DNA of 35,609 nucleotides from Microthrixaceae bacterium (GTDB lineage: Bacteria; Actinomycetota; Acidimicrobiia; Acidimicrobiales; Microtrichaceae), in contig JAHRAZ010000087.1 in the NCBI GenBank assembly GCA_020027475.1, forward strand, positions 1-35,609. The letters run 5' to 3'. Both the position numbers and the translations under genes were made by a program. How positions within the stretch are numbered: position 1 is the first letter of the stretch; the number at the start of each line of letters is the position of its first letter. Positions 31,250 to 32,884 of the stretch are shown here, piece by piece. The notes below the pieces were generated by a model that saw only the letters and a list, made by a program, of their open reading frames with translations, had not been told where the DNA came from and made no database searches.

Positions 31250-31272
31250 ACCTCCTGCGGAGCGCAGGAGGT
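31250..31272 (-). terminator. Attenuator terminator hairpin upstream of leuA
   Basis: Minus-strand ACCTCCTGCG (31272-31263), loop CTC, CGCAGGAGGT (31259-31250): a perfect 10-bp stem with a 3-nt loop followed by TCTTCGGTTTT. It lies 2 nt after the first hairpin and ~94 nt before the leuA ATG. The 3' arm contains AGGAGG, but the nearest in-frame start (GTG 31234) is 16 nt away, too far for a ribosome-binding site. Confidence 0.75.
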
Positions 31273-31274
31273 CG

Positions 31275-31298
31275 GGCGAGTCGGGTGAACGACTCGCC
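31275..31298 (-). promoter_or_regulatory. Leader hairpin 1 of the leuA attenuator
   Basis: GGCGAGTCG (31298-31290), loop TTCACC, CGACTCGCC (31283-31275), a perfect 9-bp stem whose 5' arm begins at the last base of the leader-peptide stop codon. A ribosome at that stop would cover the 5' arm, while one stalled on the Leu codons would leave it mostly free. Confidence 0.7.
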
Positions 31299-31339
31299 TA
31301 GGTCAGAAGCAGAAGTGCAGCGGCGCTATGGGACATCAT
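31298..31339 (-). CDS. leuL: leuA leader peptide with four Leu codons
   Basis: A 13-residue ORF, MMSHSAAALLLLT, ending in TAG. Codons 9-12 are CTT CTG CTT CTG, the position and composition expected for sensing charged tRNA-Leu. It is followed immediately by two perfect hairpins, the second terminator-like, and then leuA on the same strand. A TAGCAT -10 box ends 6 nt before the first ATG, with TTGCGA 17 bp further upstream, so the transcript should begin on the start codon: a leaderless leader peptide. It overlaps the 5' end of the divergent diguanylate cyclase frame. Ribosome-mediated attenuation of leu genes is known in actinobacteria; this instance is read directly from the sequence. Confidence 0.85.
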   Translation of the reverse strand: MMSHSAAALLLLT

Positions 31340-32884
31340 TGGTCAATGCTACGGCACACTCGCATCCTTCGCAATCATGATGCGGGTCCCTCGAAGCCCC
31401 TGCGAACGGCCCTGTTGATATGGGCCGCCACGCTGGGGGCAGCTTCCGCCGCAACTGATTCACCTGCCAATGCCATTCTGTTCAATCTGGCAGCCTGGCT
31501 GCCGGCGGCGGTTCTGCTGTTGCCACTTCTGGGGATTGGAATCACGTGGCCCTGGCGTCTCATGGGCGCGGGAATCACCTGCTTCATTCTGGCCGCAAGC
31601 GCCGAGTCGGTGGCCAGATTCAAGGGCGGAGTTGTCCCGGAAAGGGGAAGCCTCGCCGATGCTGTCTTTGTGGCCGGGTACATTCTCCTGGCAGCAGGAG
31701 TCTGGCTTCTCGTGGCCAAACATGCCCGACGAGCCCTTCGGGAAGGTGCGGCCGACTTGGCGGTGTTGCTGGTTCCAGCCACCGTTCTGCTACTCGAGTT
31801 CGTGATCATCCCGGCCAGTGATGCCGGCGATCCGTGGGAGCTCCGGCTCCTTGCGGCACTCTTTCTGTTGGCCGATGTGGTGCTGGTTGCGGCGCTGCTC
31901 TGGCTTCTCGCCACTCCGACTCTGCGCGGTCGGCACCTCGGCGCACTCCTGGCCGGCGTCATCCTCACCCTCATCGCCGATCTGATACTCGCTGCCGAAC
32001 TGCTGCAACCGAGCAGCGACGAACGTGCCGTCGTCGAGGCCATCTATCCCCTCACCTGGACCTTGATGGCGGTCGGCATTGCCCGCGGGTCCAGATCCCT
32101 GCCGGTGCAACAACCTGCAACTTCGTTCGTTCACTGGGGTCGGATGACACTGTTGGGCTTCGGCGTGATTCTGGGGCCGATCTCGATCGCGTTGGCCGCA
32201 GCGGGACCTAACCCACTTCCCACCGAGGCCATCGCCATCGTCGCAATCCTGTCTTCCAGCTTCATCGTGTGGCGGACACTGGATCTGGCATTGAATCTGG
32301 AACGAACCACCATCCAACTCGCATCCACACAACACCACCTCCGGGAGGCGGCAACGCACGATCCACTTACCGGCCTGCTGAACCGCAGCATCCTGGCCGA
32401 TCTCCTGAGCTCCCCGGAACCCATCCACGGACCAACAGCACTCGTGTCTCTGGACCTCGACGGGTTCAAGTCGATCAATGATACGTTCGGACACGAAGCT
32501 GGAGACCATGTGCTGCAATCCGTCGCCAAGCGAATGAGCGAGGTCTTGCGACCCGGGGACGAGGTCCTGCGAATGGGCGGCGACGAATTCCTGATCATCG
32601 CCCCGGGGGTGGACAGGTCCGAAGTGGCTCAACTGACCGAGAGGCTGCTGCGGGACATCGAAGGGCCAATTTCCTGGATCGGAGACGACGGCGAAACCCA
32701 CCTGCTCGAGGTGTCTGCCAGTGCCGGAGTCGCGTTCGCAGGCGAAACGGCACCAGGGAGCACCAGACAATCTGCCTCGATCGCCCAGGCCCTCTCCTCA
32801 TCAGATGAAGCCATGTACATGGCCAAGGACCGGGGCCGGGGTCAAGTGATCCTTCACCAGGAAGAGAACCCGGATCAAAACTGA
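31328..32884 (+). CDS. Membrane-anchored diguanylate cyclase (GGDEF)
   Basis: 518 residues. The N-terminal ~320 form a membrane sensor of about eight to ten hydrophobic helices, separated by short basic loops. A short coiled linker (LERTTIQLASTQHHLREAATHD) precedes the GGDEF domain (about 345-510). The catalytic MGGDEF is near 416-421, and an inhibitory RxxD site (RPGD) lies five residues before GGDEF, so c-di-GMP product inhibition should be intact, unlike in the PAS-GGDEF-EAL protein of this window. The start is uncertain: ATG 31328 or ATG 31346, neither with a good ribosome-binding site. Both lie in or beside the divergent leuA leader and its promoter, so the two 5' regions overlap. Confidence 0.9.
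   Translation: MGHHWSMLRHTRILRNHDAGPSKPLRTALLIWAATLGAASAATDSPANAILFNLAAWLPAAVLLLPLLGIGITWPWRLMGAGITCFILAASAESVARFKGGVVPERGSLADAVFVAGYILLAAGVWLLVAKHARRALREGAADLAVLLVPATVLLLEFVIIPASDAGDPWELRLLAALFLLADVVLVAALLWLLATPTLRGRHLGALLAGVILTLIADLILAAELLQPSSDERAVVEAIYPLTWTLMAVGIARGSRSLPVQQPATSFVHWGRMTLLGFGVILGPISIALAAAGPNPLPTEAIAIVAILSSSFIVWRTLDLALNLERTTIQLASTQHHLREAATHDPLTGLLNRSILADLLSSPEPIHGPTALVSLDLDGFKSINDTFGHEAGDHVLQSVAKRMSEVLRPGDEVLRMGGDEFLIIAPGVDRSEVAQLTERLLRDIEGPISWIGDDGETHLLEVSASAGVAFAGETAPGSTRQSASIAQALSSSDEAMYMAKDRGRGQVILHQEENPDQN
31346..31374 (-). promoter_or_regulatory. Promoter of the leuA leader
   Basis: -35 TTGCGA (31374-31369) and -10 TAGCAT (31351-31346), separated by exactly 17 bp. The -10 ends 6 nt before the leader ATG at 31339. 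It is the best-formed -35/-10 pair I see in the window. Confidence 0.65.

Follow-up and report, generated by a model that had tools for sequence, protein, structure and literature searches.

The window, by which we mean the whole 35,609 nt stretch of DNA analysed here, is contig JAHRAZ010000087.1 of the Microthrixaceae bacterium assembly GCA_020027475.1 (Actinomycetota, Acidimicrobiia, Acidimicrobiales). On its minus strand, the gene for 2-isopropylmalate synthase (leuA) is preceded by a promoter-like sequence, a short open reading frame (ORF) with a run of leucine codons, and two adjacent hairpins; the first (P1) begins at the stop codon of the leader ORF, and the second (T) is terminator-like. 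By all the signs that sequence can give, the locus is a real attenuator that is conserved through most of the sampled order, and its hairpins are predicted to fold side by side. All attenuator coordinates refer to the minus strand of the window, and the parts are as follows.

31369..31374, minus strand: -35-like hexamer TTGCGA, separated from the -10 hexamer by a 17-nt spacer
31346..31351, minus strand: -10 hexamer TAGCAT, with 6 nt (TGACCA) between its end and the leader ATG at 31339
31298..31339, minus strand: leader ORF, MMSHSAAALLLLT and stop, its start codon at the predicted transcription start (leaderless)
31304..31315, minus strand: run of four Leu codons, CTT CTG CTT CTG, with a single codon between it and the stop
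31275..31298, minus strand: hairpin P1, 9 bp with a 6-nt loop, the first pair using the G of the UAG stop
31263..31266, minus strand: candidate RNA polymerase pause site UGC/G, 11 nt past P1
31249..31273, minus strand: terminator hairpin T, 11 bp in the minimum-energy fold, 1 nt after P1
31239..31250, minus strand: U-rich tract of the terminator, UUCUUCGGUUUU, the first two U paired at the base of T
29372..31156, minus strand: leuA, 2-isopropylmalate synthase (long type), with AAGGAG at 31169-31164

An earlier note on this DNA, made from the letters alone, had described the promoter, the 13-codon leader ORF, P1 at its stop codon, T, and leuA with its AAGGAG, and each was found where the note placed it. 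The hairpin T was likewise found, although its length, given as 10 bp, is 11 bp in the minimum-energy fold. The RNA from 31339 to 31220 folds better than its shuffles (z -3.2; 2/200 shuffles as good). The product of leuA scores 764.8 bits against TIGR00970 (cut-off 697.4), and contains the domains PF00682 (HMGL-like), PF22615 (IPMS_D2) and PF08502 (LeuA_dimer). An in-frame GTG at 31234 (ORF 29372-31234) would add 26 residues to LeuA, but is unlikely to be the start codon because the leader differs in length by 11 nt in a sister genome (L002), which retains the promoter, leader, P1 and T. A search of Rfam 15 gave no match at the gathering score in the window, and none at E values up to 10 in the region 31150-31450.

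The gene was sought in 99 genomes, including that of the window, and a leuA-like match was present in 96, in some cases merely to distant relatives. From these genomes, 61 leuA upstream regions were taken, and 57 (the window included) carry a leader ORF with a Leu-rich run, the leader starts being picked by eye. Three of the remaining four are cut by contig ends (L020, L024 and L046), and one (L056) is without a Leu-run ORF. P1 and T occur at the same places in 53 of the 57. The other four (L050, L051, L053 and L054) have Leu-rich leaders in another arrangement lacking the P1 and T pair, and were excluded from the alignment. The earlier note had proposed such an alignment to see whether the Leu codons and both stems are maintained, and they are. 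Across the 53 rows, 92% of stem cells pair and both sides have changed in 13 of the 20 pairs, while shifting the partner by 1-3 columns as a control lowers pairing to 43-47% of cells. Covariation was also assessed by comparing complementarity within species to that between species (60 permutations) in 151 distinct leaders, which are what is left of 159 after removal of 8 identical cores; 51 were chosen by their ORF and 100 through a model of P1 and T. Both stems covary strongly in this test (z -24.7 for P1 and -26.5 for T). Among the 149 leaders that are in register, the last three codons before the final residue specify Leu in 149, 148 and 146 cases, and the fourth in 97. The 12 nt that follow the T core contain at least 7 U in 144/151 leaders.

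A covariance model (R1) covering the Leu run, P1 and T finds a single site in the window's own genome. It matches 313/397 genomes of the order (E 0.001) and 35/198 genomes of the phylum (E 0.0001), and of the latter 13 belong to the order, 3 to the class beyond that order, and 19 lie outside the class. Matches were also found in 26/80 named loci, including metagenome-assembled genomes titled Acidimicrobiales, Acidimicrobiaceae and Ilumatobacteraceae, with a few titled Actinomycetes or Chloroflexi. There was no R1 match in L093 and L116, both titled Acidimicrobiales. Two types of LeuA, related only distantly, are encoded downstream of the attenuator, and one genome (G156) carries two copies of it (L149 and L192), one before each type. 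The recurrence of the Leu-rich run, the hairpin pair and the R1 motif bears out the claim that a leucine attenuator precedes leuA. A different type of leuA leader is seen in L050, L051, L053, L054, L093 and L116; it specifies Leu-rich peptides ending in P(A/T/V)-like residues and has a hairpin around the stop codon, and no terminator is visible by eye in these six. A pairing of the Leu region with the downstream sequence AAGUCCGAAG is possible in L053 and L093.

The two hairpins had been noted as adjacent and compatible in the window, and the minimum-energy folds of all 151 leaders have the same character. P1 starts at the third nucleotide of the stop codon in 113/151 leaders, at the first or second in 12, and 1-2 nt past the stop in 26. 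No nucleotide separates P1 from T in 110 leaders, one does so in 18, and the largest gap is 5 nt; the G-C core of T starts 2-4 nt after P1 in 123/151. The same geometry is retained by 82 representatives clustered by similarity (gap 0 nt in 51). It is also retained by the 51 leaders selected by ORF alone (gap 0 nt in 36), an agreement that matters because the other 100 came from the P1 and T model. Two hairpins of at least 7 bp, no more than 1 nt apart, are present in 128/151 leaders without any filter on position, and the same pair with P1 at the stop codon in 65/755 shuffles. The apical loop of P1 reads CACAUA or similar, by eye, in many members outside the window's family (for example L031, L034, L043, L049 and L143), though it is unpaired.

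Textbook attenuation requires two mutually exclusive RNA folds, and the earlier note remarked that no such antiterminator was obvious here, which turned out to be its most informative part. Several candidate pairings were rejected. The note had offered CUUCUGC in the Leu codons as a partner for the T 3' arm, and these regions are indeed complementary at -6 kcal/mol or better in 94% of leaders (mean -9.8 kcal/mol), yet show no covariation (z -1.4), and the pairing has the wrong regulatory sense. Its other suggestion, the 5' arm of P1 with the 5' arm of T, is weak (mean -6.5 kcal/mol, versus -19.3 for P1 itself), and the small within-species excess (z -3.2) could be explained by relatedness. No excess was detected between the P1 loop and the T 3' arm (z 1.0, 151 leaders). 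The P1 loop with the sequence past T (UUCACC with GGUGAA in the window) appeared promising by eye in a few relatives and gave a z of -0.3 over the 151. The Leu run and the P1 5' arm are less complementary within than between species (z 4.1). The loops of P1 and T are too short to give usable energies for a pairing with each other.

The RNA was also folded with and without a ribosome footprint, as had been advised, leaving free what remains when a ribosome sits at the first Leu codon or at the stop codon, up to the 5' arm and loop of T. In E. coli controls, the T 5' arm was sequestered at 0.62 (trp) and 0.67 (leu) in the stalled state and below 0.01 at the stop; the his leader gave 0.69 and 0.68, and so no discrimination. 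Over the 151 leaders the means were 0.04 stalled and 0.32 at the stop, opposite in sense to E. coli, and the value in the stalled state exceeded 0.5 in 1/151. The window alone gave 0.02 and 0.21. Because the T 5' arm is free with the ribosome stalled at Leu, pairing provides no antitermination. Once the T 3' arm is included, the predictions have T formed in all states, both for E. coli and for the 151 leaders (0.94-0.97). In transcripts beginning at the last sense codon, the first four nucleotides of the T 5' arm are paired upstream at a mean of 0.15, and above 0.5 in 5/151. Contiguous pairing extends P1 into T in 4/151 leaders, by one nucleotide each, and in 10/151 if one mismatch is allowed; the number of nucleotides shared by P1 and T is 0 in 147/151 and 1 in 4/151. 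The covariation, occlusion and extension tests on the 151 leaders together detected no mutually exclusive base-paired antiterminator; the locus may still act as an attenuator through another geometry.

A similar arrangement recurs at other genes. Of 30 ilvB loci from the same relatives, 22 were examined, the window's own genome included, and 20 of these have a short leader rich in Val, Ile or Leu, a hairpin at its stop codon, and an adjoining terminator-like hairpin. The copy in the window's own genome (L260, contig C121) specifies the leader MHYAVVVVLI; it has Val codons and the same layout, one hairpin at the stop codon and a terminator-like one next to it. In other parts of the class and phylum, regions found with R1 precede leuS, ilvB and leuA; four leuS and two ilvB downstream genes were checked as 70-residue fragments against NCBIfam. 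Twenty such regions, part of the 35 phylum matches (L301, L305, L309, L310 and L311 being without an assigned gene), were combined with the 20 ilvB leaders. Two hairpins with gaps of 0-5 nt were predicted in 39 of these 40 regions, the exception being L315, for which the fold window was placed too late. Mean sequestration of the T 5' arm in the set was 0.08 stalled and 0.33 at the stop. In Actinomycetes, an ilvB leader was found in 12/14 loci, and 11 were folded (Arthrobacter L329 was left out); the gap between P1 and T is 0 nt in 10 and 1 nt in one, P1 begins inside the ORF in 10/11, and it can be extended into T in 2/11, by one nucleotide each. Since the same layout recurs with other stem sequences at ilvB and leuS, geometry is what appears to be kept. 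Upstream of trpE, 24 of the 30 loci fetched showed no ORF with WW or WxW.

The leuA leader peptide is predicted to be leaderless, as had been claimed, and this is supported by the conserved promoter spacing. A TAnnnT motif ends 6-9 nt before the nearest ATG or GTG in 77/151 leaders, where mononucleotide shuffles give about 4, and its frequency at other distances from the start codon does not exceed that in shuffles. If any in-frame start is counted, TAnnnT lies at 4-9 nt in 85/151 leaders (12.7 expected), of which 46 have a TTG 16-19 nt from the -10 box and one has a Shine-Dalgarno-like motif. The spacing agrees with that mapped in Streptomyces lividans, where a mean of 6.3 nt separates the -10 box from the start site (PMC8079986). 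At ilvB the leaderless spacing is less clear than at leuA, with TAnnnT at 4-9 nt in 4/20 leaders and a looser nAnnnT at 5-8 nt in 17/20. The coupling of a leaderless leader to attenuation had been singled out as the part worth studying, but it is already published for actinobacterial leu and ilv leaders. It is known in kind because RNA-seq has mapped leaderless starts for S. lividans leuL1 (leuA) and leuL2 (leuS) (PMC8079986), and because the ilvBNC transcript of Corynebacterium glutamicum begins one nucleotide before its leader peptide (PMC11857589).

The sequence at the leader start, CATTGACCAATG (31328-31351), is a near-palindrome. An ATG at 31346, in frame with a divergent plus-strand ORF for a GGDEF protein (31328-32884; PF00990), has CATCAT in front of it at a distance of 6 nt, and the leuA leader and this ORF may represent opposite leaderless starts from overlapping promoters.

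With moderate confidence, we read the leuA leader as a ribosome-mediated, leucine-responsive transcription attenuator in which P1 is the ON structure sensed by the ribosome. The basis of this reading is the conservation, covariation, geometry and leaderless spacing described above, together with the tests, which detected no base-paired antiterminator; the leucine response, translation, termination and steric step are what we infer from it. Transcription would start at or beside the leader ATG, so that the ribosome would load on the 5' end of the RNA, and the sensor would be P1, with its 5' arm beginning at the stop codon. With plentiful leucine the ribosome would reach the stop codon, cover the P1 5' arm and melt P1, upon which T would fold and the polymerase terminate. 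With scarce leucine it would stall some 15 nt short of that point, at the first Leu codons, leaving P1 folded and leuA transcribed. This polarity (gene on with P1 folded, gene off with P1 melted and T folded) would be a sensible one for a biosynthetic gene. P1 would take the role of the antiterminator without sharing pairing nucleotides with T and, because the two hairpins do not compete for nucleotides, their exclusion is proposed to be steric. With the polymerase at the U-tract, the base of T would border on the RNA-DNA hybrid, and another hairpin directly abutting that base would need to fit inside the exit channel; as P1 could not enter that channel, the last pairs of T could not close. 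We put this step forward tentatively, as one that may well be wrong. A steric antiterminator without shared pairing nucleotides, recurring at leuA (before two LeuA types), ilvB and leuS across Actinomycetota and leaderless at leuA, is a possibility we consider rather unlikely.

Several points weigh against this interpretation. If base pairing is the sole consideration, a stalled ribosome leaves T a little freer than a ribosome at the stop does, which is opposite to the requirement for attenuation, and in both states the complete T stem is predicted to be present (0.97 and 0.95). The search model that supplied 100 of the 151 leaders contains both hairpins, and so favours the geometry. Changing the start codon of the C. 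glutamicum ilvBNC leader cuts expression by 80% (PMC11857589, citing earlier work), unlike the simplest form of the P1 model, which predicts high expression without translation. Clusters of hairpins have been argued to cause termination (PMC8355165), and in the open literature we found no demonstration that an intrinsic terminator is blocked by a hairpin flush against its upstream side.

P1 might instead act mainly as an RNA polymerase pause hairpin, holding the polymerase at UGY/G until a ribosome melts it, with ON and OFF set by a protein, by NusA/NusG or by coupling. We think this improbable as the main function, although it is compatible with a ribosome-sensed P1. The distance from the end of P1 to the variable base of a UGNG motif is 11 nt in 62/151 leaders and 10-13 nt in 101 of the 109 that have the motif, that base being C or U in 100/109. 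Pauses suppressed by NusG in E. coli have hairpins 11-13 nt from the RNA end with -10G, -1Y and +1G, and the distance given for the hisL pause hairpin is 11 nt, as for P1 (PMC10268239). On the other hand, position -10 is A in 66/97 leaders and G in 18/97, 14/20 ilvB leaders have no UGYG 30-58 nt past the stop, and UGYGCC is partly accounted for by the T stem. As UGNG is missing from 42/151 leaders, the spacing is a lead and no rule, and the pause consensus was discarded as a universal feature. Classical attenuation, in which the Leu codons, the P1 5' arm or the P1 loop would form an exclusive antiterminator with part of T, seems distinctly unlikely. Such structures have been proposed for Corynebacterium ilvB (PMC10272879), and the near-universal complementarity of the Leu codons to the T 3' arm and the small excess between the two 5' arms speak for it. 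Neither the Leu run nor the P1 loop shows a within-species excess with the T 3' arm, however, the stalled-state sequestration of the T 5' arm is far below that of E. coli trp and leu, the start of that arm is seldom paired upstream, and the stalled ribosome would itself cover the Leu codons.

Little credence is given to competition at the boundary, as proposed for C. glutamicum ilvBNC, where P1 and T would share a few junction nucleotides that migrate between them. That locus has the same order of parts, a leaderless leader and adjoining hairpins (PMC11857589), yet an extension of P1 into T is confined to one nucleotide in the few leuA leaders (4/151, or 10/151 with a mismatch) and Actinomycetes ilvB leaders (2/11) that allow it. 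Very unlikely, in our view, is a tandem terminator in which P1 and T act together and leader translation tunes expression otherwise or hardly at all. The end-to-end fold and the termination reported for hairpin clusters (PMC8355165) would suit it, but it explains neither the Leu codons nor the constant position of P1 at the stop codon. Because a ribosome at the stop removes P1, such a tandem would also give less termination when leucine is abundant.

Among known systems, the E. coli trp and leu attenuators share with the leuA locus a leader peptide, a stalled ribosome and a terminator, and differ in that the antiterminator takes the T 5' arm (0.62 and 0.67). Their leader peptides are led by a Shine-Dalgarno sequence. 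The ilvBNC or ilvB-II motif of Corynebacterium resembles the leuA leader in having its leader at the RNA 5' end, branched-chain amino acid codons, and a hairpin beside the terminator (PMC11857589, PMC10272879), and the C. glutamicum ilvBNC leader works as an attenuator in tests (PMC11857589). As described in those parts of the two papers available, its upstream ORF spans most of P1 and its antiterminator overlaps the terminator, either at a 3-nt boundary, with an additional anti-antiterminator (PMC11857589), or through pairing of the P1 loop with P2a (PMC10272879). At leuA, P1 starts at the stop codon with no overlap of T, and the gene and codons are different; the shared boundary nucleotides of the C. 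glutamicum 'fast' attenuator are lacking here, with none shared in 147/151 leaders. The M. tuberculosis ilvB1NC attenuator also has an upstream ORF with branched-chain codons and an intrinsic terminator, and replacement with Ala codons gives low, non-inducible expression. It differs in its 166-nt leader and mutually exclusive antiterminator, and is not called leaderless in the available text (PMC13236596). Related attenuators of branched-chain amino acid genes, with a leader peptide and a terminator, have been tested in both C. glutamicum (PMC11857589) and M. tuberculosis (PMC13236596).

The LEU element, reported in 2005 in front of leuA in most of the Actinobacteria then studied, likewise has a leader peptide with a Leu run and a structure just past the Leu codons; in the portion of that report available, no terminator is described, the Leu codons pair with the leuA Shine-Dalgarno sequence, and a pseudoknot is proposed (PMC1262725). 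In the window, the Leu codons are separated from the Shine-Dalgarno sequence by a terminator-like hairpin. The named Actinomycetes leuA loci gave no R1 match at E 0.01 and resemble the LEU element as published, without a terminator (PMC1262725), so that R1 separates that group from this one. S. lividans leuL1 and leuL2 are leaderless leucine leaders before leuA and leuS, as is predicted here before leuA; leuL1 has no typical terminator, leuL2 is followed by a hairpin with a U stretch behind it, and the P1 and T geometry is absent from the available part of their description (PMC8079986). In the open literature we found no paper joining names beginning Acidimicrobi with leader peptide, attenuation and leuA, and none on steric antitermination by adjacent hairpins.

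The flush, non-overlapping geometry of P1 and T, common to leuA, ilvB and leuS, is worth testing. The two published proposals for Corynebacterium ilvB name different antiterminators (PMC11857589, PMC10272879), and a change in the spacing between P1 and T would distinguish such models. A covariance model is now available for the attenuator of an order sampled here largely through draft genomes. Judged from its sequence, the hairpin pair probably switches leuA off when leucine is plentiful, without the overlapping structure of the textbook switch. Because the hairpins are compatible in free RNA, it would have to be the transcribing polymerase that makes them exclusive if P1 does still turn T off, and an attenuator built in this way, if real, would be simple and evolvable.

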